Virus record (IMG/VR): IMGVR_UViG_3300019892_000002
Location: 1-31,723 of that record
DNA from: a virus
Length of the DNA: 31,723 bases
Reading direction: 5' to 3' (one strand)
Position 1 is the first letter of the stretch, and the number at the start of each line of letters is the position of its first letter. Positions 705 through 15,715 of the stretch are shown here, in pieces. The translations under genes were made by a program, and so were the position numbers. The notes under the pieces are model-generated. The model ran no database searches and was not told where the DNA came from. It saw only the letters and a program-made list of their open reading frames with translations.

Positions 705-767
705 GAGAGTCATGGTGAGAATTGGGTTCGATTCCCAATGCTCTTCTAGCTGGCATCTTATCTGCCG
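705..767 (+). ncRNA. tRNA-like module 1 (mini-tRNA fold plus start-proximal hairpin)
   Basis: Acceptor-like stem 705-710/740-745 (GAGAGT with GCTCTT, including two G-T wobbles). T-arm 721-726/734-739 (ATTGGG/CCCAAT) with loop TTCGATT at 727-733, and a GG-containing D-like segment between. There is no anticodon arm. Second hairpin TGGCA 751-755 / TGCCG 763-767. The stem differs in sequence from the other copies yet still pairs. It sits directly before the gene at 776. Confidence 0.8.
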
Positions 768-775
768 AGTTTATT

Positions 776-1102
776 ATGAGTGAAACACTTTCAGAAGCAC
801 TTGTTGAAGTTGCAGAAGAAAACGGAATGAATATAGAATCAAAAACTTTTGGAGATATGTGTAGTAAAGTAAAAGGTATGGAAAGAAAAATCGAAAGAAT
901 AGCAGATTGTGAACATGAAAAGGTAGATATGAGACTCCCTCCCTCAATAGTTAAGGAATCTGCTTCGGAATTCTTATTTGACAAATGTGAAGCAGGTAAA
1001 GTTCGTGGAGTGGAAGGTACAAAGAACGTATTAATAGGAGAATGTATAGACTGTGGGAAAAAGATAGATATATCAATCAATTTAGAGGTACATAGAGAAT
1101 AG
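776..1102 (+). CDS. hypothetical protein with CxxC (108 aa)
   Basis: Start chosen at ATG 776 (MSETLSEALV), 8 nt after the module 1 hairpin. The longer ORF from 722 would begin inside the tRNA-like T-arm and is rejected. The protein is helical and acidic, with Cys90-x2-Cys93 near the C-terminus and further Cys/His residues at 45-47 and 71, possibly a small zinc site. The initiator context ATGAGTGAAAC recurs at several genes in this window. Function unknown. Confidence 0.7.
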   Translation: MSETLSEALVEVAEENGMNIESKTFGDMCSKVKGMERKIERIADCEHEKVDMRLPPSIVKESASEFLFDKCEAGKVRGVEGTKNVLIGECIDCGKKIDISINLEVHRE

Positions 1103-1171
1103 CACATAGCTTGGTAGCATAGTTGGGGGTTCGATTCCCTCCATGTGTTTTAGCTGGCATCTTATCTGCCA
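1103..1171 (+). ncRNA. tRNA-like module 2
   Basis: Acceptor-like CACAT 1103-1107 / ATGTG 1143-1147. D-loop-like segment CTTGGTAGCAT. T-arm 1125-1129/1137-1141 around loop TTCGATT (1130-1136). No anticodon arm. Hairpin TGGCA 1155-1159 / TGCCA 1167-1171 with loop TCTTATC. It begins right after the preceding stop codon, and ATG 1180 follows 8 nt after the hairpin. Confidence 0.85.
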
Positions 1172-1179
1172 AGTTTACT

Positions 1180-1425
1180 ATGAATTTCGACCAAAATTCA
1201 GCACTACTGCAAGGTGTAGCTCCAATGGAAGCACTTTCATTCTTGTCGGAAAACGACAAGCAATATGAAGTTACGGTTCACTGTGGCAGTGCAGAAGCAG
1301 CAGAACGGCAACGTCGTGCTGGAAATGGAAAGGTAACGGAAAACGGATACCAGCGTACTTTTCCTCATGAGGTAGTCGAAGAATTGGCTGAAGATGATGA
1401 GAATGTTTCTGTGAAGGTAATATGA
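1180..1425 (+). CDS. hypothetical protein (81 aa)
   Basis: Start set at ATG 1180 (MNFDQNSALL), 8 nt beyond the module 2 hairpin. An upstream in-frame ATG at 1123 lies within the tRNA-like fold and is not credible. Small mixed protein with an acidic C-terminus. Its stop overlaps the next start (ATGA, 1422-1425), so the two are translationally coupled. No known domain recognised. Confidence 0.7.
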   Translation: MNFDQNSALLQGVAPMEALSFLSENDKQYEVTVHCGSAEAAERQRRAGNGKVTENGYQRTFPHEVVEELAEDDENVSVKVI

Positions 1426-1730
1426 GAATGATAAAAAATAAATACAAACTTGAGCGGTTCGCAAAGGCTGTTAGAGATGATAAATATGAACAATTTATGT
1501 TGAAAAATAGAAACGTACTCTATACTGATTGGGAAGGAGATGGTGCATTTGAACCATGGGTTACGATGTACCACGAAGACGACTTATCAACAGAAGAACA
1601 CATTGAGGAAATTCGAGACACTCTTGAAGACGTTTTTGAAACTTCTATACACCATATGCACTATGATGAAGACCAAGAAATAGTGTATCCTGAAGACTTG
1701 AGAAAAGATGATGTACTCAAACATCTGTAA
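1422..1730 (+). CDS. hypothetical acidic protein (102 aa)
   Basis: Coupled to the previous gene by a 4-nt ATGA overlap. Strongly acidic, with many Tyr, Trp and His residues (TDWEGDGAFEPW, HHMHYDEDQE). There is no signal peptide or membrane helix. The protein may belong to the small accessory proteins typical of haloarchaeal viruses. Function unknown. Confidence 0.7.
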   Translation: MRMIKNKYKLERFAKAVRDDKYEQFMLKNRNVLYTDWEGDGAFEPWVTMYHEDDLSTEEHIEEIRDTLEDVFETSIHHMHYDEDQEIVYPEDLRKDDVLKHL

Positions 1731-1733
1731 CAG

Positions 1734-1800
1734 CACATAGCTTGGTAGCATAATTGGAGGTTCGATTCCTCCATGTGTTTTGGCTGGTATCCTACTACCA
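1734..1800 (+). ncRNA. tRNA-like module 3
   Basis: Acceptor CACAT 1734-1738 / ATGTG 1773-1777. T-arm GGAGG 1756-1760 / CCTCC 1768-1772, loop TTCGATT. Hairpin TGGTA 1785-1789 / TACCA 1796-1800, a covariant of the TGGCA/TGCCA version. ATG 1808 follows after 7 nt. Confidence 0.85.
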
Positions 1801-1807
1801 ACTTATT

Positions 1808-2218
1808 ATGAAGGAATATCATGACTCTGAAGTTTTGAAAAAATTGTATCACGAGAAAGAAATGAGCCAACATGAGATTGCAGATAAATTTGGTGTTTGT
1901 CAAGCGACTATTCATAAATGGATGAAGAAAAACAATTTAGAGACAAGAAAAGCAAATGATGAAAAACCTCCTTGTTATCAGGAAGTTGCTAATGGATATA
2001 GATGTTGGAGGCATACAATTGAGGGAAACAAACAAAGAGTGTTGGTTCACAGACTCCTCGCAGTTAGTAAATTTGGAATTAATGCTGTAGCTGATAATAT
2101 AGTTCATCATAAGAATGGGTGCAGATTTGATAACAGACCAGATAATATTGAAATAATGACGAGAGGAAAACACACTACACTACATAATAATGAGAGAGCA
2201 AATAATAATAACTACTAA
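1808..2218 (+). CDS. HTH-HNH endonuclease (homing-type)
   Basis: A 136-aa freestanding HNH endonuclease. Residues about 17-44 form a helix-turn-helix (KEMSQHEIADKFGV..ATIHKW) for DNA recognition. The C-terminal half carries the HNH core: His100-His101, Asn103, the DNRPDNIE segment at 108-115 and His122/His126. Such enzymes nick or cut DNA and spread as selfish genes in phages and viruses. Start ATG 1808 is 7 nt after the module 3 hairpin; the longer frame from 1754 starts within the tRNA-like element. Target site unknown; no intron boundary is evident around it. Confidence 0.88.
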   Translation: MKEYHDSEVLKKLYHEKEMSQHEIADKFGVCQATIHKWMKKNNLETRKANDEKPPCYQEVANGYRCWRHTIEGNKQRVLVHRLLAVSKFGINAVADNIVHHKNGCRFDNRPDNIEIMTRGKHTTLHNNERANNNNY

Positions 2219-2221
2219 AAT

Positions 2222-2289
2222 CACATAGTCTGGTGACTTAGAGAAGGTTCGATTCCTTATATGTGCTTTAGCTGGCATCTTATCTGCCA
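2222..2289 (+). ncRNA. tRNA-like module 4
   Basis: Acceptor CACATA 2222-2227 / TATGTG 2260-2265. T-arm AAGG 2244-2247 / CCTT 2255-2258 with loop TTCGATT. The D-like segment is TCTGGTGACTTAG. Hairpin TGGCA 2273-2277 / TGCCA 2285-2289. ATG 2298 lies 8 nt further on. The core differs clearly from modules 2, 3 and 5, but all stems are kept. Confidence 0.83.
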
Positions 2290-2297
2290 AGTCTATT

Positions 2298-4016
2298 ATG
2301 AGTGAACAACTCAGCAGTACAAGTCAGTCAGCGGATAGTATCTCAATTGACGCAAATGACAATCTTATCAGGAGCGTTATTTGCGACCAAGCAGATAGCA
2401 TCGAGAAAGGATGGCGAGAAGGTATTCAAAATTCAGTTGACTCTGATGCCTCAAAGGTAGAACTTGACTTTACTCATGAGTATAGTCTCATTGAGGATAA
2501 TGGTTCAGGTGTCAAATTAACTGAAGAACGTGGAAAAGAGCTTATGACTACAATGGGTGCATCGTCAAAAGACAAAGGTAGCGATGAAGATATTGGTTGT
2601 TTCGGTGTTGGCAAAGGACAACTAATCGCAAAAGGCAAGACAGTCTTCTATTCAGGTGGCTATGCAATCTTGTTCGACATCAAAAACTGGGGATTAGAGA
2701 GTTTTCAGATGAAGCTCTTTGATGTTCCGAGCTTCCTCGAAGACTGTGGCGAAGATGAATGGAAAGAATTGTTTGAAGAACACGTTGGCAAAGGTGTCTA
2801 TGATGGGTTTGGAATGTTCATCAATCACTATGAAGATGAAGTTCCAGCAGAAGATAGCTATCATTGGAGATTCCATAGGGAAAACACAGAAGAGCGGTTC
2901 CAATTCCTTGAGTCTGTCAATGATACAGAAGTCTATGTGAATGGGAATCAAATCTCAGACAAACATCCACTGAATTATGTGAATGATACAGGAGTGAGAA
3001 AGACAATCAGTGGTGATGAAACTGAAGAGACATACATCTGCATTACAGATTCGACGGGCACTGAAGAACCACTTGAAGTCTACTCGAATGGTATTTATGT
3101 GAGAGATATTGAGGCACGAGGTGTCGAAGGTGTCATCGTAACAAGTCGTAATCTCAGCCTTAACTTTGCTCGAAATGAGATTAAGAGTGGCTGTCCAGTA
3201 TGGAATGAGATTCAAGATAGACTTGATGAGTTACGATGTGAGGTGTTCGCTGATTCAGAAAATGACCTCAATGAGTCTGCTCGTGAATTTTTGGCACAAC
3301 AAATGCTCAAAGATGATGAGATACGAGCAGAATTTGGTTACGAAGAGCTATTCATCACTGCCACAGAGAACAGAGTCTCCCTCAATGAGATTCAGACACA
3401 GCATGAGATTGGTAAAGATGTTATTGGTGGTGATGCTGGTGATACTCTTGAAGAGGCTCTTGGAGTCCTCGTATTAGGCAGTGAAGGTGAAGATGATGCA
3501 AATGATGTACTATTCGAGGCAGAAGCAAGTAACAATACTGAGTTTGAACTTCCACCACTCTTCAATGCAAGAGACAGAGCAGAAGATGAAGGACTTCAGA
3601 CAACTCATGAAAAGCTACGAGACAGAGAATTATCTGATTCACAGAGAAAGATACTCGGTATTGCAGAGTTACTTGCTGATGAACTTGGTTGTGAAAGAAG
3701 TATCGAATACGGTGAGAGTGACATAGCTCATGCTTGGACTGATGGACTGACAAAGATTCACATTACAGACAGTGCAGCAAGCGGTACAGCATGGATAGAA
3801 TGGGTTCCGTCACTTTGGAGAACAATTGTTCATGAAATGGCTCATAGACATTCAAGCAAAGATGATGCCGACCATGGTTCAATCTTCAACAGAGAGTTTC
3901 GCAAAGAATTGGATGAAGAACACGCAGAAGAAGCATTGAGTGCAGTCATGAAAGAAATACAGAAGTCCGGTCTAAAAGACACAGCAATCAAAGGTATGAA
4001 TCAACGCGGATTGTAA
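2298..4016 (+). CDS. GHKL ATPase fused to HExxH metalloprotease domain
   Basis: 572 aa. The N-terminus has the Bergerat (Hsp90/MutL/histidine-kinase-like) ATP fold: N-box EGIQNS (41-46), G1 box EDNGSGV (66-72) and G2 box GCFGVGKGQ (100-108). The C-terminus has a zinc metalloprotease motif HEMAH (512-516) with a third histidine at 526 in DADHGSIF, the SprT/WLM-like layout. The middle (about 330-470) is acidic and probably linker. An ATP-driven clamp or MORC-like module coupled to proteolysis is plausible, perhaps acting on DNA-bound host proteins, but that is inference. Start ATGAGTGAAC at 2298, 8 nt after the module 4 hairpin. Confidence 0.82.
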   Translation: MSEQLSSTSQSADSISIDANDNLIRSVICDQADSIEKGWREGIQNSVDSDASKVELDFTHEYSLIEDNGSGVKLTEERGKELMTTMGASSKDKGSDEDIGCFGVGKGQLIAKGKTVFYSGGYAILFDIKNWGLESFQMKLFDVPSFLEDCGEDEWKELFEEHVGKGVYDGFGMFINHYEDEVPAEDSYHWRFHRENTEERFQFLESVNDTEVYVNGNQISDKHPLNYVNDTGVRKTISGDETEETYICITDSTGTEEPLEVYSNGIYVRDIEARGVEGVIVTSRNLSLNFARNEIKSGCPVWNEIQDRLDELRCEVFADSENDLNESAREFLAQQMLKDDEIRAEFGYEELFITATENRVSLNEIQTQHEIGKDVIGGDAGDTLEEALGVLVLGSEGEDDANDVLFEAEASNNTEFELPPLFNARDRAEDEGLQTTHEKLRDRELSDSQRKILGIAELLADELGCERSIEYGESDIAHAWTDGLTKIHITDSAASGTAWIEWVPSLWRTIVHEMAHRHSSKDDADHGSIFNREFRKELDEEHAEEALSAVMKEIQKSGLKDTAIKGMNQRGL

Positions 4017-4027
4017 TGTAGCTTCGA

Positions 4028-4043
4028 TAAGAATTAGAGTCGG
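4028..4043 (+). promoter_or_regulatory. 16-nt repeated motif TAAGAATTAGAGTCGG (copy 2), possible promoter
   Basis: Exact repeat of 684-699, again between a stop codon and a tRNA-like module (start 4055). It is followed by an A/T-rich TTCTTAAAAA at 4044-4053 that could be a TATA box, which would place transcription start inside or just after the module. Only modules 1 and 5 have this motif, so it may mark transcript starts within the left block. Confidence 0.45.
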
Positions 4044-4054
4044 TTCTTAAAAAT

Positions 4055-4122
4055 CACATAGCTTGGTAGCATAGTTGAGGGTTCGATTCCCTCCATGTGT
4101 TTTGGCTGGCATCCTACTGCTA
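4055..4122 (+). ncRNA. tRNA-like module 5
   Basis: Acceptor CACAT 4055-4059 / ATGTG 4095-4099. D-loop-like CTTGGTAGCAT. T-arm GAGGG 4077-4081 / CCCTC 4089-4093, loop TTCGATT. Hairpin TGGCA 4107-4111 / TGCTA 4118-4122 (one G-T wobble). ATG 4136 follows after 13 nt, the longest gap in the family. Confidence 0.85.
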
Positions 4123-4135
4123 GGTTTGTTTTCAG

Positions 4136-4750
4136 ATGCTTGAGATAAGTCATCCAACAGTGACAGTACAAGTTAGTGAAGAAACCGCAGCGAATCATAT
4201 TGGAGAAATGTACGATGCGTATTGTGTCTCTAACAGAGATAAACGCCTCATGAATAGAGCAGTAGATGAAGTGGTTGCAACAAATCAACTTCTGATTAAA
4301 CGACTTAAAGATGAGATAGATGTTCAATACACAACTGATGACCCATATTCAGGTCATGAAGAGATGTTTGATGATATTGCAGTAAATGATAGAATAAAAA
4401 TATTCAGTGGTGGTACTCATCCGTGGTACATGGGTAGTATGGAAAAATCAGCAAAGCAGAACAACATTGAAAACAGAGCAATTCACGATTACTTCGGTCA
4501 CTACAAGAATAATGTCGGATTCAACTTTTGGGGAGAGTTTCAGAAATGGCATCATATGAGAGAGCATTATTCACGACAAGCAAACCGCGCTCTCTTCAAT
4601 GAGGTTGCAGGACAAACTGGACTTGTGAATTATCTTGAAGGTGGATTTGACAACGACGATTATACTCAAAAAGCGTTCTTAGCTCCTGAACAATGGATAG
4701 AATATTGTTACGAACATTGTCCTCACTCATTGAGTGGCGGTAAGTGGTGA
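4136..4750 (+). CDS. phage-type conserved protein with HDYFGH motif (204 aa)
   Basis: Contains RAIHDYFGHY, then FNFWGEFQKWHHMREHYS, then ALFNEVAGQTG. This resembles, from memory, an uncharacterised phage protein pattern (hHDhFGH ... GE ... E..GQ). The conserved His, Asp and Glu residues could form a metal site. The N-terminal third is helical and probably a separate segment. No function is established to my knowledge, so only the resemblance is claimed. It is read from ATG 4136 behind module 5. Confidence 0.7.
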   Translation: MLEISHPTVTVQVSEETAANHIGEMYDAYCVSNRDKRLMNRAVDEVVATNQLLIKRLKDEIDVQYTTDDPYSGHEEMFDDIAVNDRIKIFSGGTHPWYMGSMEKSAKQNNIENRAIHDYFGHYKNNVGFNFWGEFQKWHHMREHYSRQANRALFNEVAGQTGLVNYLEGGFDNDDYTQKAFLAPEQWIEYCYEHCPHSLSGGKW

Positions 4751-4769
4751 GATAACAACAGAGACAAAA

Positions 4770-4833
4770 CCATAGAGCAGTGGCGTAAGTGAGGTTCGAG
4801 TCCTCACTATGGCTTGCTGGCATCATACTGCTA
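4770..4833 (+). ncRNA. tRNA-like module 6 (TTCGAGT subtype)
   Basis: Acceptor CCATAG 4770-4775 / CTATGG 4807-4812, perfect 6 bp and a clear covariant of ACATAG/CTATGT in modules 9 and 10. D-like segment with TGGCGTAAG. T-arm TGAGG 4790-4794 / CCTCA 4802-4806, loop TTCGAGT. Hairpin TGGCA 4818-4822 / TGCTA 4829-4833. ATG 4839 follows 5 nt later. Confidence 0.87.
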
Positions 4834-4838
4834 CTATT

Positions 4839-5111
4839 ATGAGTGAAACAAATGATATTCAGACGATTTTGACAGAAGAAGATGGAATGCTCAATGTTGA
4901 GGTTACAATGCCAAGAAAACATCAAAGTATTGACGGGTCATCTATTATCGAAGCTCCCGTAGTAGTTGCTGAGATTGATGTACGTAAAGATGAAGATACT
5001 GTAAAAGCTATTATCGACAGATTAGGTGAATGGTATGCTGAACAACAAGATTCAGTACAAGAATCTGTAAAATCAGTGTCGCAGAAAATGGATGAGGTGT
5101 ACGATAGATGA
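4839..5111 (+). CDS. hypothetical protein (90 aa)
   Basis: Starts at ATG 4839 (MSETNDIQTI), just after the module 6 hairpin; the in-frame ATG at 4809 lies in the acceptor stem and is rejected. The N-terminal half is beta-like and the C-terminal half a predicted amphipathic helix ending QKMDEVYDR. It overlaps the next gene by ATGA. Function unknown. Confidence 0.7.
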   Translation: MSETNDIQTILTEEDGMLNVEVTMPRKHQSIDGSSIIEAPVVVAEIDVRKDEDTVKAIIDRLGEWYAEQQDSVQESVKSVSQKMDEVYDR

Positions 5112-5401
5112 GTGAAACAATAATCTCAACTGAGAAAGGACCAATAGAACCACCTGAGTTTGCTTTCGATGAAGGTGATTTCCTCGAAGTAAATGAACAT
5201 ATCGTACTACCAAGTGGTGAAGAAAAGTATGCACTGCGGTATAACATAGAAGACCAGATGCGAGAGTATGTTATTCCTGAAGATAAATGGTATGTAAGAT
5301 ATAAAGTTTCCATTGTTTACAGGAATTGTGTGAATAGACTAAATGAATACACTTTATGGACTACTGAAGAAGATATTCTTGAAGATGATTTTAATACCTA
5401 A
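5108..5401 (+). CDS. hypothetical protein (97 aa)
   Basis: Coupled to the preceding gene by a 4-nt overlap and beginning with the recurrent ATGAGTGAAAC. Beta-strand-rich, acidic sequence with many aromatic residues. No cysteine cluster or membrane segment. Its stop codon abuts module 7. Function unknown. Confidence 0.7.
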   Translation: MSETIISTEKGPIEPPEFAFDEGDFLEVNEHIVLPSGEEKYALRYNIEDQMREYVIPEDKWYVRYKVSIVYRNCVNRLNEYTLWTTEEDILEDDFNT

Positions 5402-5470
5402 CACATAGCTTGGTAGCATAATTGAGGATTCGATTCCCTCTATGTGTTGTGGCTGGTAGCCTAACTACCA
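5402..5470 (+). ncRNA. tRNA-like module 7
   Basis: Acceptor CACATA 5402-5407 / TATGTG 5441-5446, fully paired where modules 2 and 5 have a mismatch. T-arm 5424-5427/5437-5440 plus an A-C mismatch next to loop TTCGATT. Hairpin TGGTAG 5454-5459 / CTACCA 5465-5470 with loop CCTAA. ATG 5477 follows after 6 nt. Confidence 0.86.
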
Positions 5471-5476
5471 TTGATT

Positions 5477-5905
5477 ATGCCTTATCCGCCAAATGTTTCA
5501 CGACGAGACAAGATTAGAGCAGGAATTATCGAGCCGCATAGTCATGACTGTCATTTTGTTCCAACAGAGAAAAACATAACATATGAGGATAACGCATTTT
5601 ATGTGTTATTCCATTGTGATTATAGAGAAGGTGAATGGGGAGAAGAATACAGTTGTGATGAAAAGATTCATGTGAGATATGAAATTTCTCATATGTACTT
5701 CCCTGAAGAATCCAGAGCAAATGGAGTAGAATTTAATCAAGATACCAAAAAAGGATGTGAGATAACACATCCGATAGCAAGATGGGTAGTCAATGCGTAC
5801 CTACAAGATGAACACTCCGACATAAATGTTCGTCCTGACCGTCATGATGGTCATGTTGAGATAACTTACGATGGTATTGTACTTCGGTTTGAACCAGTAG
5901 AGTAG
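5477..5905 (+). CDS. hypothetical His/Cys-rich protein (142 aa)
   Basis: Start chosen at ATG 5477 (MPYPPNVSRR), 6 nt from the hairpin, rather than the TTG two codons earlier. The sequence is rich in His, Tyr and Cys (EPHSHDCHF, YSCDEKIHVRY), which may bind a metal, and ends with a beta-like segment. Not recognised; placed among other accessory genes each preceded by a tRNA-like module. Confidence 0.7.
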   Translation: MPYPPNVSRRDKIRAGIIEPHSHDCHFVPTEKNITYEDNAFYVLFHCDYREGEWGEEYSCDEKIHVRYEISHMYFPEESRANGVEFNQDTKKGCEITHPIARWVVNAYLQDEHSDINVRPDRHDGHVEITYDGIVLRFEPVE

Positions 5906-5973
5906 CACATAGCTTGGTAGCATAGCGAGGGTTCGATTCCCTCAATGTGTTGTGGCTGGTAGCCTAACTACCA
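5906..5973 (+). ncRNA. tRNA-like module 8
   Basis: Acceptor CACAT 5906-5910 / ATGTG 5945-5949, beginning at the base after the preceding stop. T-arm GAGGG 5927-5931 / CCCTC 5939-5943, loop TTCGATT. Hairpin TGGTAG 5957-5962 / CTACCA 5968-5973. ATG 5982 is 8 nt further. Confidence 0.86.
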
Positions 5974-5981
5974 TGTTTACC

Positions 5982-6497
5982 ATGAGTGAAACAATCACCG
6001 ACGAGAGATACGGAAATAACATGAATCAATCACAACTTAAAGATGCCATTGTTGAGTACCAAAGAAAATTTGCAAAGAAATACGATGTACTTGATATTGA
6101 TGTCGATGCCTTCCCAACTGAAATATCAAATCGAATGACAAAAACAGCAGGTAAAGTAGCACACAAAGGAGGTGAAGTATCCTATGTCCGATATGCCTAC
6201 AAAGCATATGAAAAGTGGGGATGGAAAAAGTTCGCAAAGACAATTCGACATGAGCTAATCCATGTTCATCAAGTTCAGAATAATAAACCAAGCGGTCATG
6301 GATACTCATTTAAAAAGCTGGTTGAACCACTAGATACACACCGACATTGTGAGAAATTCTCTACTCCAAATTATCTGGTTACGTGTAAGGGATGTGGTGA
6401 GACAACAGGACGGCAGAAAAAATCAAAGCTGGTTAAGTACCCATATAAATATCAGTGTTCAAAATGTGGTGGAGATTTAGTATCGAGTAAAAACTGA
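5982..6497 (+). CDS. SprT-like zinc metalloprotease
   Basis: 171 aa. Active-site motif HELIH at 90-94 with a third ligand His106 in SGHGYSF, followed by a C-terminal zinc ribbon (Cys135, 138, 159, 162). This is the standard SprT/Spartan domain order and typical SprT size. Spartan-type proteases cut DNA-protein crosslinks; in a virus the target is unknown. Start ATGAGTGAAAC at 5982 lies 8 nt after the module 8 hairpin; the longer frame from 5952 overlaps that hairpin. It is the second HExxH protein within about 2 kb. Confidence 0.9.
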   Translation: MSETITDERYGNNMNQSQLKDAIVEYQRKFAKKYDVLDIDVDAFPTEISNRMTKTAGKVAHKGGEVSYVRYAYKAYEKWGWKKFAKTIRHELIHVHQVQNNKPSGHGYSFKKLVEPLDTHRHCEKFSTPNYLVTCKGCGETTGRQKKSKLVKYPYKYQCSKCGGDLVSSKN

Positions 6498-6517
6498 TTA
6501 CAAGAGTAACTATTTTA

Positions 6518-6922
6518 ATGAATGACACTAATTCAATGAGTACGGAAATGAATATGGATATGCTCGAACACACGGAAGCAAACATCAGACGAATAGCAAA
6601 CGCCGAACCCGAAAAGCTCGGAGAAGGTGGTATGGCAATCGAGTTTCGTGTTCCAGTAGAACTTGATGTCGAAGATGTAATCTGGAACGGAAGGCAGATA
6701 ATTATCAGAGCTTATACTCGTAGCGAAAAAGTCCCACTAGCAAGCCTTACACTAAGTACAGTTGTCGAAAATGGTACAATCATCGTAACTGAATACGGTC
6801 CCGGTATGCTATCCGCGAAAGAGGTGAAAGAAGAGAAGTCATACACTCCTAATGCTGAAAAACTCAAGCCGATTTATCAATGGTTGCAGAGTGTTGGTGT
6901 CGAATTTCATGGATTAGAGTAA
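6518..6922 (+). CDS. hypothetical acidic protein (134 aa)
   Basis: Begins at ATG 6518 after a 20-nt gap that has no tRNA-like module. Methionines at 8, 12 and 14 are possible later starts. The second half looks beta-rich (VDVEDVIWNGRQIIIRAY, TLSTVVENGTIIVTEYG). No recognised domain. Confidence 0.65.
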   Translation: MNDTNSMSTEMNMDMLEHTEANIRRIANAEPEKLGEGGMAIEFRVPVELDVEDVIWNGRQIIIRAYTRSEKVPLASLTLSTVVENGTIIVTEYGPGMLSAKEVKEEKSYTPNAEKLKPIYQWLQSVGVEFHGLE

Positions 6923-6924
6923 CG

Positions 6925-6989
6925 ACATAGAGATGTGGCGTAAGTAGGGTTCGAGTCCCTACTATGTTTTCGCTGGCATCGTACTGCTG
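6925..6989 (+). ncRNA. tRNA-like module 9 (TTCGAGT subtype)
   Basis: Acceptor ACATAG 6925-6930 / CTATGT 6962-6967, perfect. TGGCGTAAG D-like segment. T-arm TAGGG 6945-6949 / CCCTA 6957-6961, loop TTCGAGT. Hairpin TGGCA 6974-6978 / TGCTG 6985-6989 with two wobbles. ATG 6994 follows only 4 nt later. Confidence 0.86.
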
Positions 6990-6993
6990 TGTA

Positions 6994-7566
6994 ATGAGTA
7001 GCAAATCATATCCACATCCAGAGAAATTTAAAACAGAATCGAAGCCAAAACAAGATGCAGATTCCTGCCGTATTGAGTATAGATTTAATCAATTACTTGG
7101 AAAGAACAGCGATGAATATGTATTCGTAGATTATGTTTTCGATAATCTGAATACAAATGTTGGTGGTACAGTTGGCACAATGATGAGGGCGGTTCCGACT
7201 GCTGAAGCTGAGAGAAGAGTACAGGTTTACAAACAATACCATACATCACCAATGTCCAACATATATGATGCAATCAACCCATCATTGTCATGGAAAGAAT
7301 GGATTAATGCTCGATTCCGTCGAGATGGATACGGTGTCATCTACGATAGAACATATGAATGGCAGTATGGTGATGTCGTTATCGAAAAGCTGTCTCAGGA
7401 AACACACATGGAGGAGAGCGATATTGCCTGTGTCGAATGTGTGAATGAATCTCGATTGACGCGATTTTTCGATGATGATAGTCGCCACACACTGGATACA
7501 GTCTACGATGTAGAGTTGCTGAAAGTCGCAAATCAAGCAGAACATAGCAGTCTTAGTAACTACTAA
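6994..7566 (+). CDS. hypothetical protein (190 aa)
   Basis: Start ATG 6994 (MSSKSYPHPE) is 4 nt past the module 9 hairpin; the upstream in-frame ATG at 6964 is within the acceptor stem. Mixed alpha/beta soluble protein rich in Tyr and Arg, with one Cys-x2-Cys pair (ACVEC) in the C-terminal third. Its TAA overlaps the next ATG (TAATG). No family recognised. Confidence 0.7.
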   Translation: MSSKSYPHPEKFKTESKPKQDADSCRIEYRFNQLLGKNSDEYVFVDYVFDNLNTNVGGTVGTMMRAVPTAEAERRVQVYKQYHTSPMSNIYDAINPSLSWKEWINARFRRDGYGVIYDRTYEWQYGDVVIEKLSQETHMEESDIACVECVNESRLTRFFDDDSRHTLDTVYDVELLKVANQAEHSSLSNY

Positions 7567-7676
7567 TGACTGATAAAAAACATAAACAGAGACATGGTGT
7601 AGCAAAGCTAGAAGGAGAGTTTGTCGGATTGAAGCTGTATGATGATGTGTACCAAGAGGTGAGAACAAATGATTGA
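7566..7676 (+). CDS. small basic-N-terminus protein (36 aa)
   Basis: ATG 7566 overlaps the previous stop as TAATG. The sequence runs MTDKKHKQRHG...VRTND. The K/H/R-rich N-terminus is unusual among the acidic proteins here. The next microprotein starts inside its end (ATG 7669). The chain of start-stop overlaps is the main support. Confidence 0.5.
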   Translation: MTDKKHKQRHGVAKLEGEFVGLKLYDDVYQEVRTND

Positions 7677-7752
7677 AACATGGTTTATGTTTTTCTTTGG
7701 AGCATGGCTTATGATGCTTCTAACTATACTTTTGGATTTATTATATGAGTGA
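7669..7752 (+). CDS. single-pass membrane microprotein (27 aa)
   Basis: ATG 7669 overlaps the preceding ORF. The 27 residues (MIETWFMFFFGAWLMMLL..) are nearly all hydrophobic, forming one membrane helix. Likely inserted in the cell membrane; role unknown. Too short for homology, supported by coupling to neighbours on both sides. Confidence 0.5.
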   Translation: MIETWFMFFFGAWLMMLLTILLDLLYE

Positions 7753-7757
7753 AAGAA

Positions 7758-7871
7758 ATGATTAATTACTTACTTGCTATCGTACTTAGTGTAGTTCTTA
7801 GTATAATTATCTTGTTTGTGTCATCAATAGTTTTTATCAACATTATTTTTAGCGTAGTTAGATTTCAATGA
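7758..7871 (+). CDS. single-pass membrane microprotein (37 aa)
   Basis: ATG 7758 opens a 37-residue, almost wholly hydrophobic chain (MINYLLAIVLSVVLSIIILF..) that would span the membrane once. Its stop forms an ATGA overlap with the next gene at 7868. It is the second tiny membrane protein in a row. Confidence 0.5.
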   Translation: MINYLLAIVLSVVLSIIILFVSSIVFINIIFSVVRFQ

Positions 7872-8176
7872 CTGAAACAAAAACAATCGTCACGACAGAG
7901 GAAGTTGAAATGGTTGAATGTAGTAGTTGTGGGCAAGAAATCAAGAAAGATGAGGCACATTGTTTCATGGTAAAAAATACAAAATATAAAGATGATTCTT
8001 CAGGACAAACAGAAGGATGGGCGTGTGAACATTGTGTCGAAAGACCAATTAGTTACCCTACAATTAAACTTAGCAAGTTTTTACTTGGAGAAGTAACCGA
8101 TAGTGTAAAAGCAATCTTTGCTCTTATGTTGTTGTCTTTTCTACTTGGTGTAGTAATTACACCTATATTTGTATAA
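7868..8176 (+). CDS. zinc-ribbon membrane-anchored protein (102 aa)
   Basis: The N-terminal half carries Cys-x2-Cys (CSSCGQ, residues 18-21) and a second pair ACEHC, forming a likely zinc ribbon. The C-terminus is a membrane helix (FALMLLSFLLGVVITPIFV), so the zinc domain is probably held on the inner face of the membrane. Translationally coupled (ATGA) to two membrane microproteins, suggesting they act together at the envelope. Function unknown. Confidence 0.7.
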   Translation: MTETKTIVTTEEVEMVECSSCGQEIKKDEAHCFMVKNTKYKDDSSGQTEGWACEHCVERPISYPTIKLSKFLLGEVTDSVKAIFALMLLSFLLGVVITPIFV

Positions 8177-8185
8177 TCATAGCTA

Positions 8186-8250
8186 ACATAGAGGAGTGGC
8201 GTAAGTAGGGTTCGAGTCCCTACTATGTTCTAGCTGGCATCTTACTGCTA
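8186..8250 (+). ncRNA. tRNA-like module 10 (TTCGAGT subtype)
   Basis: Acceptor ACATAG 8186-8191 / CTATGT 8223-8228. TGGCGTAAG D-like segment. T-arm TAGGG 8206-8210 / CCCTA 8218-8222, loop TTCGAGT. Hairpin TGGCA 8235-8239 / TGCTA 8246-8250. ATG 8257 follows after 6 nt. Confidence 0.87.
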
Positions 8251-8256
8251 CTCATT

Positions 8257-9195
8257 ATGAAACTTGATTACGACAAGCTGACATACGACGAAGCATTGGG
8301 TATTCTCACAGAAGAACACGGTTCAAAAACAATCTCAGCATGGAAAGAGCAGATAATTTCAGCGTCAGATGTCCTTTGGTATCTTGATGAGTATGAATTT
8401 ACAACACTTGAAGATGCAATTGCACTCCAAGGGTGGGACAAGCGACTTGGAAAAAGGATTCATAACGGACTGCTCAATTCAGGAGCCGACATTCAAGAGG
8501 CAACAGAATGTTATGACATTGCAGATGATGCTGAAAGATGCCCCGGTTGTGGGACAGAAATGTATCGGTTTGAACTTCCGAGTGTAGGACTTCATATGAC
8601 GGAGACTGAGTATGTGGATGAATATGGAGAATTAACAGGTGAAGATATAAAGTTTGTCGAACAACCATCAGGTATGTACTGGAACGCCGACAAACAAGAA
8701 GACCATGCACCTAATCTGTGTAATTGTTGTAGTGTTGATATGTTTCGGCGGGTTGATAGAAGGACTCAATCAACAGTTAGTATCTTTTATGGAGAAACAA
8801 ATGAATATACTAAATTCTCTATCGAAGACAACATTATCATGTGGCATATGTACTACGACCATGACATGACTGATTTGTATATGCTTCCCGGCGACCACAA
8901 TGACTTCCCTAAAGCTATGGCAAGGAATAATATCACAGAGTTCCTTGATGAACATGACTGGGTTGAAGTCTCATGGAGTGTGTATAAGGAAGAGTGTGAC
9001 TATGGAAGATTATACAATACTCGACGAGATTACAGAAATGTCGGGAAAGAATGGGCTGGAGCAGAAGAGCCTCATCCTGATATAGACTTCACATACATTG
9101 TTGATACATCATCATTTGGCAAGCCCTCATTCTATATGGCTGAAGAAAACAAAGCAGACTTCCTCCATGAGCTAGAACAGCAGATTAGTAAATAG
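8257..9195 (+). CDS. hypothetical zinc-binding protein (312 aa)
   Basis: Acidic protein with a central zinc-ribbon-like motif: CPGCG (Cys95, 98) and CNCC (Cys155, 157, 158). Residues 1-90 are helical and resemble a small DNA-binding or adaptor domain. The C-terminal half is Asp/Tyr-rich with no known motif. ATG 8257 is directly behind module 10. The stop codon TAG overlaps the first two bases of module 11, so module and gene are packed without spare sequence. Function unknown. Confidence 0.72.
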   Translation: MKLDYDKLTYDEALGILTEEHGSKTISAWKEQIISASDVLWYLDEYEFTTLEDAIALQGWDKRLGKRIHNGLLNSGADIQEATECYDIADDAERCPGCGTEMYRFELPSVGLHMTETEYVDEYGELTGEDIKFVEQPSGMYWNADKQEDHAPNLCNCCSVDMFRRVDRRTQSTVSIFYGETNEYTKFSIEDNIIMWHMYYDHDMTDLYMLPGDHNDFPKAMARNNITEFLDEHDWVEVSWSVYKEECDYGRLYNTRRDYRNVGKEWAGAEEPHPDIDFTYIVDTSSFGKPSFYMAEENKADFLHELEQQISK

Positions 9196-9259
9196 ATAGG
9201 TTTGGTAACATAGACAGGGTTCGATTCCCTGCTATCTTTTCGCTAGCATCGTACTGCTG
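9194..9259 (+). ncRNA. tRNA-like module 11
   Basis: Acceptor AGATAG 9194-9199 / CTATCT 9232-9237, a fourth acceptor sequence, perfectly paired. D-like TTTGGTAACATAG. T-arm CAGGG 9215-9219 / CCCTG 9227-9231, loop TTCGATT. Hairpin TAGCA 9244-9248 / TGCTG 9255-9259, where AGCA/TGCT replaces GGCA/TGCC. ATG 9266 is 6 nt later. Confidence 0.87.
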
Positions 9260-9265
9260 ATTACA

Positions 9266-9670
9266 ATGACAGATTTTGATGAAACCAAATTTCCACACCG
9301 ACCAAGCGAGTATGGATTCACCGACCACTTCAGTAATGATGTGGTTCATGCAAAAGAACAAATGCCGAAAGATAATATCCGCCATGTAACATGGGAGCGA
9401 ACATTCCACACAATCCGCCATGGGAAGTTGCAGAAGGCTGATGGCAACGCTGATGCAGAGTTTATGCGTCAGTACAAAGGTGTTCGTAACTTCGTGCTAG
9501 TCGGCTATGACAACCATCGTGATAAACCGATAGTTGTCACCGGCTGGATGATGGTTCATGACCCAAACCAAGCAATCAAATCAGGTCGCTGGAGTGAGCA
9601 GCAGCTACGAGACATAAACGAATTTAATAACGGCGAATCGCTTGAAGAAGATTTTGGGTATCCCCTCTGA
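9266..9670 (+). CDS. hypothetical protein (134 aa)
   Basis: Soluble mixed alpha/beta protein; the segment RHVTWERTFHTIRHGKLQ is basic in an otherwise acidic protein and could contact nucleic acid. ATG 9266 sits 6 nt after the module 11 hairpin. It directly precedes the helicase gene, 16 nt from the chosen helicase start. No family recognised. Confidence 0.68.
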   Translation: MTDFDETKFPHRPSEYGFTDHFSNDVVHAKEQMPKDNIRHVTWERTFHTIRHGKLQKADGNADAEFMRQYKGVRNFVLVGYDNHRDKPIVVTGWMMVHDPNQAIKSGRWSEQQLRDINEFNNGESLEEDFGYPL

Positions 9671-9686
9671 TAGAGGCAGTTTTTCA

Positions 9687-11486
9687 ATGAACTTACAAAC
9701 AGCAGAAGACGAACTAGATGTATCACTCGAAATAGAAGACTACCACGGTTCACAAGCAGGCTTTATTCCATTTCTTCGAGACGTTGCTGATGAGGTATTC
9801 GTTTTTGACGGCTACCGACAATATCAAGATGAAATTTTATACGAGGCAGTTGAAGAATTGTATCTAAACGGTACACAAAATATCATCATTGATGCACCGA
9901 CAGGCATTGGAAAAAGTCCAGTGAATGTCGCAATTGCTCGTGTTGGAACCTACCTCAATGAGCAATCACTTCCGATTCAGCAACATTTCGGTGTCAGTCT
10001 TGACCTCGATGAAGGAAATGGATTCTATTGCACACCTCAAAAGCAGCTTCGCAACCAGCTAGCTGAAGATGATGACCTGCAAGAGTATGTTGATATGCTC
10101 AAGAGCCGTTCAGATTATATCTGTGGTGAAACAGGCAGTCCATGTAATGACTGTCCAGTGTTGAGTGACCCTGATAGCTCTTGTATGCAAGAATCAGCTT
10201 GCACATACTGGGATGCAAAGATGGATGCAATAGAGTCTAACGCAGCAGTCCTTACATTTGCGATGCTTGTCGTGGATGATAACATTCCGAAGTCCGTAGA
10301 AACAGAGCATGGAGAAGAGCGTGTTGGCTTTGGTAACAGAGATGTTGTCATCGTTGATGAAGGACATGGTATCGAGAATCAAGCTGCAAGTCTCTTTGCT
10401 GGTTTTACAGTATCGCCATTCTCACTTCCAAACAGAGTGTTTGCCGATGCTGGTGACAATGTATCATGGGATGCAGAACGAATTGAAGATGTTAGCGGTC
10501 AGCTAATTGGAATCGCAAACCGAGCAGAAAAATATATTACAGAGAATGAAAACAATGAAAACCTTACTCGTGAAGTGAGACAGTGTGAGAACTTCCTTAC
10601 CAAGTACCAGTATATGAACACTGAGATTACGGAAGACCGTCCATGGGTTGTAAATATCGAGCAAGTACAAATTCCCGGTGACTCTGAAACAACAAAGAAG
10701 ATAGAGCTAAAACCCGTTCAGGTTGACCGCTTCCTCAATCGGTTTGTTTGGAATCGTGGCAACAAACGAGTTATCTCTTCAGCTACAATCCCATGGAGAG
10801 GGAGTATAGACAAATTCGCAAACCGGATTGGACTAAATGGTAGTACAAAAATGATTAGTAAACCGTCGCCGTTTCCACGAAAGCATCAACTCATTCATAC
10901 TAATACTGAAATTGGTGAGATGTCCGGTGATAGCGAGGATGAAAACTGGTTTGCTGCGTGTCGAAAAGTCGAAGAGATACAAAGCCATCATGAGGGAGAA
11001 AACGGACTCATTCATACAAATAGCTACGAACGAGCAGAGCGATTACAAGATTCAATCGGTGATGAATTGGTTATGGTTCATGACAGAGAATTAGATGCTT
11101 CGGTTCAGATTCGTAAGTGGCAAGAATCAGAGCAGCCAATCTTAGCATCACCAGCAATGACAGAAGGTGTTGACTTATACGATGATAGATGTCGCTGGCA
11201 AGCCATTCTGAAGGTTCCGTTCGGGATGATTGGTGATAGTCGGGTTAATTATCTCCTCAATGAGAAACACCAGTGGGGATGGTACTACGAGACAACAAGC
11301 AACCACCTACAACAAGCTGCTGGTCGAGCAGTCCGTGGACCAGATGATGCAGCGTCAATGTATATTCTTGATTCCAAATTCAGAAGTGTAATGCAACGAA
11401 CGAATCCACCTGAATGGTTCTTGAATACCATTACAGACGAAAAGCCCGACCATTGGGACAATCCTGAAGCTGCGCCGTGGAGATAG
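9687..11486 (+). CDS. XPD/DinG-type superfamily 2 helicase with iron-sulfur cluster
   Basis: 599 aa from ATG 9687 (an in-frame ATG at 9642 would overlap the previous gene by 29 nt). Walker A APTGIGKS (70-77), Walker B DEGH (224-227), and between them the cysteines expected for a 4Fe-4S cluster (Cys146, 153, 156, 166, 172 available). C-terminal motif VI region QQAAGRAVRGPDD. These are hallmarks of Rad3/XPD/DinG 5'-3' DNA helicases, whose usual length is 550-750 aa. Probable role: unwinding in viral replication or repair. The DEGH box rather than DEAH is a minor deviation. Confidence 0.93.
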   Translation: MNLQTAEDELDVSLEIEDYHGSQAGFIPFLRDVADEVFVFDGYRQYQDEILYEAVEELYLNGTQNIIIDAPTGIGKSPVNVAIARVGTYLNEQSLPIQQHFGVSLDLDEGNGFYCTPQKQLRNQLAEDDDLQEYVDMLKSRSDYICGETGSPCNDCPVLSDPDSSCMQESACTYWDAKMDAIESNAAVLTFAMLVVDDNIPKSVETEHGEERVGFGNRDVVIVDEGHGIENQAASLFAGFTVSPFSLPNRVFADAGDNVSWDAERIEDVSGQLIGIANRAEKYITENENNENLTREVRQCENFLTKYQYMNTEITEDRPWVVNIEQVQIPGDSETTKKIELKPVQVDRFLNRFVWNRGNKRVISSATIPWRGSIDKFANRIGLNGSTKMISKPSPFPRKHQLIHTNTEIGEMSGDSEDENWFAACRKVEEIQSHHEGENGLIHTNSYERAERLQDSIGDELVMVHDRELDASVQIRKWQESEQPILASPAMTEGVDLYDDRCRWQAILKVPFGMIGDSRVNYLLNEKHQWGWYYETTSNHLQQAAGRAVRGPDDAASMYILDSKFRSVMQRTNPPEWFLNTITDEKPDHWDNPEAAPWR

Positions 11487-11538
11487 AAGCAAAGAGTTTA
11501 ATTGTCATAAGCTAGTAACAACAGTACATCTGTTATCG

Positions 11539-11604
11539 GCATAGAGTGATGGCGACAGTGGGGTTCGAGTCCCCACTATGTTGTGGCTGGCATCCTTACT
11601 GCCA
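11539..11604 (+). ncRNA. tRNA-like module 12 (TTCGAGT subtype)
   Basis: Acceptor GCATAG 11539-11544 / CTATGT 11576-11581 (terminal G-T wobble). ATGGCGACA D-like segment. T-arm TGGGG 11559-11563 / CCCCA 11571-11575, loop TTCGAGT. Hairpin TGGCA 11588-11592 / TGCCA 11600-11604. ATG 11609 follows 4 nt later. Confidence 0.85.
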
Positions 11605-11608
11605 TATC

Positions 11609-11761
11609 ATGACTGATAAAACAATGAGTGAAACGTGTGAAGTTGATGGCTGTGAGAATCGCGCTCACACATTTATTGAGAAAGGAGATGATTCTATTGA
11701 AGGAATGTTATACTGTGAACAACACTTTCGAGAAATATTTTTTGGAGAGACAGATGAATGA
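11609..11761 (+). CDS. small zinc-finger protein, paralogue A (50 aa)
   Basis: From ATG 11609 (MTDKTMSETCEVDGCENR); a second start at 11624 would match the paralogue at 12132 exactly but lies farther from the module hairpin. Cys-x4-Cys followed by Cys-x2-His (YCEQH) forms a one-zinc finger. The next paralogue overlaps its end (ATGA at 11758). Probably a small adaptor or DNA/RNA-binding protein; function unknown. Confidence 0.7.
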   Translation: MTDKTMSETCEVDGCENRAHTFIEKGDDSIEGMLYCEQHFREIFFGETDE

Positions 11762-11916
11762 GTGAATGTATAGATGATGGTTGTAATAAGAACGGCTTTA
11801 TAGAGATAAGTATTGATGGTAGAATGTTATGTATCGACCATTTCAACGAGTGTATTGACATTTCATATTTAAACGAATCAGAAAACGAAAACCAAGAAGA
11901 GGAAAACAATGAGTGA
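11758..11916 (+). CDS. small zinc-finger protein, paralogue B (52 aa)
   Basis: Begins MSECIDDGCNKNGF with ATGA overlap to paralogue A. It has the same layout, Cys-x4-Cys then Cys-x2-His (LCIDH), plus a Glu/Asn-rich tail. Its end overlaps the membrane gene at 11909. Divergence from A and C suggests an old tandem duplication. Confidence 0.65.
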   Translation: MSECIDDGCNKNGFIEISIDGRMLCIDHFNECIDISYLNESENENQEEENNE

Positions 11917-12139
11917 AATTCCTATTGGAGGAGTTATCGTAACATCATTAATACTGTATCTCACAGTTGCAATATCGTTGAGTTTTGATATTATTACTGA
12001 TAGTAGACGAAACTACGGTGATACAGACTACATGATAATACTCCTCGCTAGTTTTGGATGGCTGCCAGCAATCATCATACAGTTATATATTAAGGGAATA
12101 CGAAGCGTAAAGAAGGTTAAATATTATAATAATGAGTGA
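11909..12139 (+). CDS. two-pass membrane protein (76 aa)
   Basis: ATG 11909 lies inside the end of the previous gene. Two hydrophobic helices (about 6-26 and 42-62) are separated by a polar loop (DSRRNYGDTD), with a basic C-terminus (RSVKKVKYYNNE). The positive end suggests a cytoplasmic C-terminus. Encoded between zinc-finger paralogues B and C. Function unknown. Confidence 0.65.
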   Translation: MSEIPIGGVIVTSLILYLTVAISLSFDIITDSRRNYGDTDYMIILLASFGWLPAIIIQLYIKGIRSVKKVKYYNNE

Positions 12140-12278
12140 AACTTGCGACGTTGATGGCTGTGAGAATGATGGTCGTACAATTTGCGAAGTAAAAGATGAT
12201 AATGGTGAAACAATTTTTGAAAAAGTATTGTGTCGTAAGCACATTGAAGAATTAGTCTTCGAAGAAACAAATCAATGA
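12132..12278 (+). CDS. small zinc-finger protein, paralogue C (48 aa)
   Basis: Begins MSETCDVDGCENDG, nearly identical at the N-terminus to paralogue A (MSETCEVDGCEN), then Cys-x2-His (LCRKH). It overlaps both neighbours (start within 11909-12139, stop overlapping ATG 12275), so it is one cistron in a coupled chain. Confidence 0.68.
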   Translation: MSETCDVDGCENDGRTICEVKDDNGETIFEKVLCRKHIEELVFEETNQ

Positions 12279-12556
12279 CAATTATCATCGAAAAGCCATA
12301 CGCGAAACACCTTACTCGAATAGCATATGAAGGCACACAGCTAGACCGCGTTCCAGAAGAGTATGAGTATAATCAAGACGTTTTGCATCAACATATTGAT
12401 AGTGTAAGAGCATTTGAAAAAGGCGACTCGTTACAGGTACTTATTCATGCAACATACGAAACACACAATGGCGGAGAAACGATTTCAGCAATTGTTGACT
12501 ACCGTATTTACAAAACAGGTAGTGCTGATACAATAATTGTGTATGACTTAGAGTAG
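12275..12556 (+). CDS. hypothetical protein (93 aa)
   Basis: Coupled to paralogue C by an ATGA overlap. Predicted beta-rich C-terminal half (SLQVLIHATYE, TISAIVDYRIYKT, DTIIVYDLE). No cysteines or membrane segment. Function unknown. Confidence 0.65.
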   Translation: MTIIIEKPYAKHLTRIAYEGTQLDRVPEEYEYNQDVLHQHIDSVRAFEKGDSLQVLIHATYETHNGGETISAIVDYRIYKTGSADTIIVYDLE

Positions 12557-12561
12557 TAAAG

Positions 12562-12567
12562 TTTATC
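12562..12567 (+). promoter_or_regulatory. TATA-like box TTTATC for gene at 12591 (leaderless)
   Basis: The box centre is 26.5 nt before ATG 12591, the spacing expected when archaeal transcription starts at the A of the ATG. The gene has no tRNA-like module, which fits an own leaderless promoter. Confidence 0.45.
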
Positions 12568-12590
12568 AAATAATAATACAACAAACCACT

Positions 12591-12839
12591 ATGAACAAAG
12601 AACAAGCAGCCAACATCGGTGTAAATCCAATCGAAATTGACGAACGAACAAACTTCCGTACTGATTCCCTCGATGAGTACCCCTCATTGTCAGCAGAAGG
12701 ATTGAAGTTCTGCTTTGGGTGTACTGCCAATCACGAGACACAGGGTTGCATCACTGCTGATAGAAAAAGCACAGGAAGCTCGTCGTACTTCTGTAAAGAG
12801 TGTGGTGGAATCACAGTCTTACAGATTCGAGACGAATAG
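12591..12839 (+). CDS. zinc-ribbon protein (82 aa)
   Basis: Cys41-x2-Cys44 and Cys68-x2-Cys71 (CFGC, CKEC) form a zinc ribbon in the second half, with Cys53 extra. The first 35 residues are acidic and polar. ATG 12591 is preceded by a 34-nt A/T-rich gap with a TATA-like box. Likely nucleic-acid or protein-binding; exact role unknown. Confidence 0.7.
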   Translation: MNKEQAANIGVNPIEIDERTNFRTDSLDEYPSLSAEGLKFCFGCTANHETQGCITADRKSTGSSSYFCKECGGITVLQIRDE

Positions 12840-12849
12840 AGAGAAATAG

Positions 12850-12918
12850 CACATAGCTTGGTAGCATAGTCGAGGGTTCGATTCCCTCCATGTGTTTTGG
12901 CTGGTAGCCTAACTACCA
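12850..12918 (+). ncRNA. tRNA-like module 13
   Basis: Acceptor CACAT 12850-12854 / ATGTG 12890-12894. CTTGGTAGCAT D-like segment. T-arm GAGGG 12872-12876 / CCCTC 12884-12888, loop TTCGATT. Hairpin TGGTAG 12902-12907 / CTACCA 12913-12918. ATG 12925 follows after 6 nt. Last copy of the left block. Confidence 0.86.
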
Positions 12919-15374: not shown

Positions 15375-15413
15375 TTGTAGCTGTAGTGGTAAGCGGTATT
15401 GCTGTGTAGTAGT

Positions 15414-15702: not shown

Positions 15703-15715
15703 AGAGCATCATTGA

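Follow-up and report, generated by a model that had tools for sequence, protein, structure and literature searches.

In animal mitochondria, polycistronic RNA is cut at the working tRNAs that lie between genes. Two further tRNA-like RNAs are known substrates of tRNA enzymes. The mammalian mascRNA-menRNA, a tRNA-like element of a long RNA, is cut by RNase P and tRNase Z and serves 3' end formation; the TMER RNAs of murine gammaherpesvirus 68 (RNA polymerase III transcripts that yield microRNAs and are not mRNA punctuation) carry a viral tRNA-like element followed by hairpins and are cut by tRNase Z. In plant mitochondria, tRNA-like structures between protein genes (t-elements) define intergenic cleavage sites and mRNA ends; the accessible part of the source (PMC8003010) describes individual cases in an organelle and no hairpin before each ATG. 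In Haloferax, the 5' end of 5S ribosomal RNA (rRNA) is made by a tRNase Z cut at an upstream tRNA-like structure (PMC3296008, PMC7714728, PMC4326828). Moreover, in living cells of Haloferax both RNase P and tRNase Z cut t-elements that serve as trimmers of CRISPR RNAs (crRNAs) (PMC4326828, PMC4946936).

Here we analysed a 31,723-nt stretch of viral DNA (IMG/VR record IMGVR_UViG_3300019892_000002, positions 1 to 31,723; hereafter the window), which carries 14 tRNA-like elements, all on the + strand. They are probably t-elements: sites at which the tRNase Z of the host, and perhaps its RNase P, divides the polycistronic early transcript into hairpin-led mRNAs with short leaders. Unlike the punctuation of animal mitochondria, these marks have no anticodon arm and no tRNA role; unlike mascRNA-menRNA, they do not serve 3' end formation in a mammal; and unlike the plant mitochondrial cases, they form a repeated array. 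While t-elements were known from plant mitochondria and from the front of haloarchaeal 5S rRNA, the viral role proposed here for this processing signal is new.

Fourteen elements without an anticodon arm

In each element, a 5-7-bp acceptor stacks on a 4-6-bp T-stem, with 11-12 nt from the T-loop (TTCGATT or TTCGAGT) to the acceptor end. A GG-bearing, D-like linker, usually of 9-17 nt, replaces the D arm, the anticodon arm and the variable loop. The features that define a t-element (an acceptor/T-arm stack of 11-12 bp, a TTCRANT loop and the absence of an anticodon arm) were all found. By contrast, the cloverleaf with anticodon arm and D-stem that defines a tRNA was absent, and ARAGORN did not call the elements as tRNAs; its lone call in the window (tRNA-Met, 6876-6969) spans one element. 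The Rfam scan of the window gave nothing at gathering score, including the tRNA and hammerhead families. The best Rfam look-alike of three copies was mascRNA-menRNA (RF01684), which was not significant (22-24 bits, the gathering score being 42.5; E 0.5-1.3).

The sequence GGTTCGANTCC, searched with at most one mismatch, gave 14 sites at the element positions, all on the + strand, compared to a mean of 1.07 and a maximum of 4 in shuffles (both strands); two more one-mismatch sites elsewhere in the window are due to chance. A descriptor scan of the whole window (T-arm, acceptor and linker, with the anticodon arm absent) found exactly these 14 elements and none on the minus strand, while a Markov control gave 0.08 matches per window. 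These are the same 13 copies of the left block and the one at 15716 reported in a preliminary description of this DNA, and all of the acceptor pairings listed there are present. Acceptor pairing within the window alone was moderately in excess of chance (a mean of 6.64 contiguous pairs vs. 5.02 in shuffles, with a shuffle maximum of 5.79).

In the 13 left-block copies, either 0-51 nt separate the upstream stop codon from the element or the two share 1-2 nt, and the first downstream ATG, 68-81 nt from the first base of the element, opens an open reading frame (ORF). A second hairpin follows each of these copies, and the predicted leaders of the 13 genes measure 21-34 nt from the predicted cut to the ATG. 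The placement between a stop codon and the next gene given in the preliminary description held for these 13 copies. The copy at 15716, also on the + strand, is not flanked by two operon genes; it is part of the HF2_270 homologue's leader and follows a promoter-like repeat (15639-15704). The elements below were assigned by the descriptor scan and their context, elements 1 and 14 also by matches to a covariance model, and the hairpins by folding.

705 to 746, + strand: t-element 1, acceptor GAGAGT/GCTCTT; predicted cut after 746, ATG 776
748 to 771, + strand: hairpin of the predicted new 5' untranslated region, element 1
1102 to 1149, + strand: t-element 2, acceptor CACAT/ATGTG; predicted cut after 1149, ATG 1180
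1152 to 1175, + strand: hairpin, element 2
1732 to 1780, + strand: t-element 3; predicted cut after 1780, ATG 1808 (HNH protein, Pfam HNH_3)
1785 to 1800, + strand: hairpin, element 3
2222 to 2267, + strand: t-element 4, acceptor CACATA/TATGTG; predicted cut after 2267, ATG 2298 (HATPase-domain protein, Pfam)
2269 to 2295, + strand: hairpin, element 4
4055 to 4101, + strand: t-element 5; predicted cut after 4101, ATG 4136
4106 to 4123, + strand: hairpin, element 5
4770 to 4814, + strand: t-element 6, acceptor CCATAG/CTATGG; predicted cut after 4814, ATG 4839
4818 to 4833, + strand: hairpin, element 6
5401 to 5448, + strand: t-element 7, abutting or overlapping the upstream stop TAA (5399-5401); predicted cut after 5448, ATG 5477
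5454 to 5470, + strand: hairpin, element 7
5905 to 5951, + strand: t-element 8, abutting or overlapping the upstream stop; predicted cut after 5951, ATG 5973 or 5982 (SprT-like protein, Pfam)
5957 to 5973, + strand: hairpin, element 8
6924 to 6969, + strand: t-element 9, acceptor ACATAG/CTATGT; predicted cut after 6969, ATG 6994
6971 to 6991, + strand: hairpin, element 9
8185 to 8230, + strand: t-element 10, acceptor ACATAG/CTATGT; predicted cut after 8230, ATG 8257
8232 to 8252, + strand: hairpin, element 10
9194 to 9239, + strand: t-element 11, acceptor AGATAG/CTATCT, overlapping the upstream stop TAG (9193-9195); predicted cut after 9239, ATG 9266
9244 to 9259, + strand: hairpin, element 11
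11538 to 11583, + strand: t-element 12, acceptor GCATAG/CTATGT; predicted cut after 11583, ATG 11609
11588 to 11604, + strand: hairpin, element 12
12849 to 12896, + strand: t-element 13; predicted cut after 12896, ATG 12925
12902 to 12918, + strand: hairpin, element 13
15716 to 15756, + strand: t-element 14, acceptor CTGTTA/TAACAG, in the leader of the HF2_270 homologue; predicted cut after 15756, ATG 15793 or 15811
15639 to 15704, + strand: class I-like promoter repeat upstream of element 14, assigned by likeness to the HF2 class I intergenic repeats

Conservation, the predicted cut and the 5S rRNA leaders of the hosts

Protein identities mark the window as part of a distinct, low-GC genome related to the Hafunaviridae (HF2-like haloarchaeal tailed viruses): its Rad3/DinG-like helicase (9687-11486) is ~52% identical to the helicases of HF1, HF2 and the HRTV and HJTV viruses, its PolB (24019-26628) is ~35-42% identical to the PolBs of all Hafunaviridae genera, and megablast gave no phage record near enough to match its left 12 kb. 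The order HF2_270 homologue (34% identity), 493-aa protein (45%) and helix-turn-helix/calcineurin-like protein (Pfam) is that of the HF2 middle region, and the left 13 kb of the window is the positional counterpart of the HF2 early left arm.

The composite of element, hairpin and ATG was also present, with unrelated sequences, in HF2, other Haloferacalesvirus, Laminvirus, Mincapvirus and many uncultured hafunaviruses. HF2 has two elements (2906-2944 and 4375-4414), in gaps before HrrHF2_010 and HrrHF2_035 that carry no annotation, and this pair recurs in HRTV-8, HJTV-1/2, Hardygib1, Serpecor1, HRTV-5, HRTV-10 and HSTV-4. One to several matches each were found in HRTV-25 (Laminvirus), HSTV-2, HCTV-6 and HRTV-7 (Mincapvirus), HRTV-27 (Minorvirus) and a range of IMG/VR hafunavirus contigs. 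Besides the viruses with the pair, HRTV-25, HSTV-2 and HCTV-6 are among those that carry the full composite. Hafunavirus contigs hold almost no elements in their PolB region. HFTV1, which belongs to another order, has one element between the stop of gp62 (35056) and the ATG of PCNA (35111), with the hairpin absent.

Covariance model R1 was built from ten viral sequences and no cellular sequence. As MAFFT misaligned the acceptor of mixed-length elements, a gap-free subset (A4) was used as its seed. R1 gave 56 matches at E ≤0.02 in 683 kb; its match to element 1 of the window spans 706-744, and elements 1 and 14 were also in its training set. In 47 distinct rows, 97.8% of the cells were paired (45-55% in slid controls), double changes occurred at 9 of the 10 pairs, and 184 cells were doubly changed, compared to 49 ± 6 in shuffles, in an alignment that was fitted to the structure, which inflates these counts. 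The preliminary description had taken compensatory change as evidence of a selected RNA and its absence from a larger alignment as a refutation; the compensatory change is borne out across genera, the window on its own giving the moderate excess noted above. In the linker, TGG occurred within the first nine bases in 49 of the 59 viral elements (12 by shuffling); the scanner had favoured GG, not TGG, at this place.

In a tRNA, a stack of 12 bp plus the discriminator base leads from the T-loop to the tRNase Z site, and the same count can be made here. The base at T-loop + 14, a position that played no part in finding or selecting the elements, is T in 55 of the 59 viral elements; outside the window the figure is 43 of 45. 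The positions next to it do not exceed 0.44. It is also T in all nine host 5S leaders inspected, at or beside the first 5S nucleotide, the exact mature end being presumed from general knowledge of haloarchaeal 5S sequences. Among 52 tRNA-type hits of haloarchaeal loci, at least two of which are 5S leaders, T was found in 38 and C in 11. The marks of a cut site, a U directly after T-loop + 13 and no encoded CCA, were present in the viral elements (no CCA at +14 to +16 in the post-cut sequences listed), and the host ruler of 13 nt after the T-loop places the predicted viral cut at the conserved U. Hairpins start from this point onwards: offsets 8 to 12 each hold 1-7 hairpin starts, and offsets 13, 14 and 15 hold 22, 20 and 21 (n = 59). 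A hairpin lies near the predicted cut in 78% of the elements, compared to 28% in shuffles.

R1 was also run over 11 whole haloarchaeal genomes, where it matched ten 5S leaders in five genomes, 2-3 nt before the 5S model match: all three of Halospeciosus (ranks 2-4), both of Natronorubrum sulfidifaciens (ranks 1-2), one of Haloarcula japonica (rank 1), two of Halobium (ranks 1-2) and two of Actinarchaeum. In the other six genomes the 5S leader was not matched by R1, which misses some leaders because their linker is longer. The descriptor found 5S-leader elements in nine of ten genomes; the tenth has 5S copies cut by contig ends. Some of the other R1 matches in host genomes lie in or near proviral regions. 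Separately, three R1 matches are clustered at 6691-9670 on a contig of Halorubrum coriense (C58, genome G027), which perhaps marks an unrecognised provirus or relic.

As far as sequence can tell, the viral elements are of the same build as the t-elements of the host 5S leaders: an acceptor/T-arm stack of ~11 bp, the T-loop TTCGATT, a TGG-type linker, no anticodon arm, a cut 13 nt after the T-loop (predicted in the virus) and U as the first base after it. They differ in their setting. The host t-element precedes an rRNA, while the viral copies precede protein genes, are numerous within one operon and in most cases have a hairpin and an ATG behind them. Three findings go beyond the preliminary description: the second hairpin, the presence of the elements in HF2 and its relatives, and the 5S precedent. 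The central proposal of that description, a tRNA-like RNA without an anticodon arm that serves as intergenic punctuation, gains support from the covariation and the recognition of 5S leaders.

Other devices occupy the same slot in some relatives. In HF2 and HJTV-1 the SPFH gene is preceded by a complete tRNA-Arg; the alignable leader slot of HRTV-8, Serpecor1 and HSTV-4 holds a t-element that has no anticodon arm and a different, still paired acceptor (in our locus numbering, L001 18509-18583 vs. L074 19690, L077 19080 and L088 18219). The sequence TGCGGTGTA after the predicted cut is common to both versions of this leader. Likewise, the leader of HF2_270 holds two tRNAs in HF2 and one t-element in the window. 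The HF2 helicase gene has an annotated type II hammerhead in front, as do the records of Serpecor1 and Hardygib1. It shares with the t-elements a place immediately 5' of an early gene in this operon and the nature of an RNA-cleaving device, but it is a self-cleaving ribozyme without tRNA shape, and none reaches the Rfam gathering score in the window.

Proposed processing of the early transcript and rival explanations

From the structure, covariation, position, build shared with the host 5S t-elements, U at the predicted cut, hairpin placement and tRNA slot exchange, we infer cleavage in infected cells, the enzymes responsible, protection of the 5' end by the hairpin and an effect on translation. 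The early left-arm operon is probably read as one long polycistronic RNA, in which the GG of each D-like segment would dock on the T-loop to form a minimal tRNA mimic. The host tRNase Z would recognise each t-element and cut 13 nt 3' of the T-loop, just before the conserved U. In the window, the downstream mRNA would then start 21-34 nt before its ATG with the hairpin at or near its new 5' end, which the hairpin probably shields, giving a short translation-ready leader. RNase P may also cut on the 5' side and so shorten the tail of the upstream mRNA behind the stop codon. The same slot can be filled by a full tRNA, as in the HF2 relatives, and the hammerhead before the HF2 helicase gene may be a functional equivalent. 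With somewhat less confidence, we think it likely that haloarchaeal tailed viruses have turned a host 5S rRNA processing signal into a general mRNA punctuation, in which early polycistronic RNA is divided by tRNA-trimming enzymes of the host into messages with a short leader and a 5' hairpin, and in which t-element, tRNA and hammerhead are interchangeable at gene boundaries.

Several observations weigh against this interpretation. Many left-arm genes have no element in front, and a clear hairpin is missing from roughly one viral element in four. The cleavage sites are predictions from the sequence. In a 2012 Biochimie paper on tRNA-like elements of Haloferax, other predicted elements that were tested reportedly remained uncleaved in vitro. 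Nearest-neighbour folding gave the proposed fold in 37 of the 59 elements alone and in 20 of the 59 composites; the one host 5S t-element that was folded did not show it either, and we do not regard minimum-free-energy folding as informative for the composite here. The acceptor at 9194 overlaps the upstream stop codon, so that an RNase P cut there would break this stop and damage the upstream mRNA; the elements at 1102, 5401 and 5905 abut or overlap theirs. Wherever an element runs into a stop codon, a cut by RNase P is open to doubt. Of the two enzymes named in the preliminary description, tRNase Z is consequently much better supported (5S-leader matches, conserved U) than RNase P. Finally, in PMC8707807, HF2 transcripts of up to 35 kb were seen by reverse transcription PCR (RT-PCR) and bands of 0.5-9 kb by Northern blotting, with processing offered by the authors as one explanation; as RT-PCR sees long uncut transcripts, cleavage would be partial or late.

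The elements might instead fold as tRNA mimics that are not cut and bind a tRNA-recognising protein or a viral regulator, controlling downstream translation or stability. Conserved structure and a leader position suit such a site, to which the downstream hairpin could belong. However, the U conserved at T-loop + 14 and the onset of hairpins at, and not before, this point fit a cut and not binding alone, the tRNase Z of the hosts is known to cut RNA of this build, and exchange with a full tRNA gene fits processing better; we regard binding without cleavage as unlikely. It is also quite improbable that the elements release a stable, small tRNA-like RNA with a function in trans, such as decoying host tRNA enzymes, and that the mRNA effect is a by-product. 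The many copies per early operon agree with it, and cuts at both ends would free a product of ~45 nt, but acceptor and linker sequences vary between copies, and the hairpin and the closeness of the next ATG point to an effect on the mRNA.

Decayed tRNA genes or remnants of integration (attachment, att, sites) kept by duplication would be in keeping with the viral tRNA genes of the same genomes, an integrase-like gene in the window (30803-31684) and the HF2 phage attachment site, a partial tRNA-Thr according to PMC8707807 and PMC7230728. Remnants would decay, whereas pairing is kept here while the sequence changes; moreover, the position before the ATG is fixed, and the window copies are all on the coding strand, which makes this origin very unlikely. 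Acceptor sequences vary by copy. We give hardly any credence to the elements being transcription terminators or promoters. Some window copies do end in TTTT after the stem, and HF2 intergenic repeats are promoters (PMC8707807), but the GC-rich relatives have no U-run, there is hardly any space for a promoter between stop codon and element, and, compared by eye, the elements are unlike the described class I and II repeats (58 or 29 bp, with AT-rich B recognition element and TATA box).

If punctuation by t-elements is real, a prokaryotic virus applies tRNA punctuation to a polycistronic transcript with elements stripped of their translation role. It would also explain why HF2 transcripts are long by RT-PCR yet short in Northern blots, and how genes of the left 16 kb of HF2, which has no class I or II promoter repeats (PMC8707807), could obtain separate mRNAs. 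The elements are unannotated in HF2, a model virus that was sequenced long ago and has been re-annotated, and the available parts of two HF2-group papers (PMC8707807, PMC7230728) do not describe them. A literature search, outside which most subscription papers fell, including the original HF2 genome paper, returned no paper pairing haloarchaeal tailed viruses with tRNase Z. Exact, testable cut positions are predicted, one of them in HFTV1, whose infection RNA-seq is published (PMC12542753); there, the tRNase Z product before the PCNA gene would begin at record position 35099. Archaeal genetics might also gain from the elements a compact cutting tag that can be moved between constructs, akin to the t-elements that trim crRNAs in Haloferax.

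Further repeats and hairpins

In window elements 2, 5, 6, 10 and 13, the linker pairs with the 3' arm of the downstream hairpin above chance (e.g. TTGGTAG/CTACCAA). A general linker-hairpin switch was rejected because this pairing, raised in the window (6.25 vs. 4.99), was not raised in relatives (4.53 vs. 4.61); a local switch in the window virus is possible. Hairpin motifs like TGGCATCC...ACTGCCA of the window recur in virus or provirus contigs (L163 5630, L167 -13683, L168 -10730), and this hairpin type may be more than a generic stem.

A scan of the collection with a DNA pattern of T-arm plus hairpin returned mostly ordinary phage tRNAs, with an element-like match in contigs L013 and L036 (IMG/VR 3300007344 and 3300007346). 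Both carry t-element, hairpin and ATG and were found by this pattern, not by a hafunavirus PolB or helicase. HF2-like viruses have a third conserved left-arm gap of ~95 nt (L075 3729-3821, L001 3663-3758) with the stem GTTGTC...GACAAC, which is neither a t-element nor an annotated hammerhead.

The HF2 class I intergenic repeats have promoter activity (PMC8707807). Repeats like them stand at the starts of gene blocks in the window (15555-15620, 15639-15704 and 26630-26695), and a reverse copy was read by eye near 14545-14600 on the minus strand. At 15310-15375, in an intergenic stretch, TGCTGTTGTTG units form a short direct repeat.

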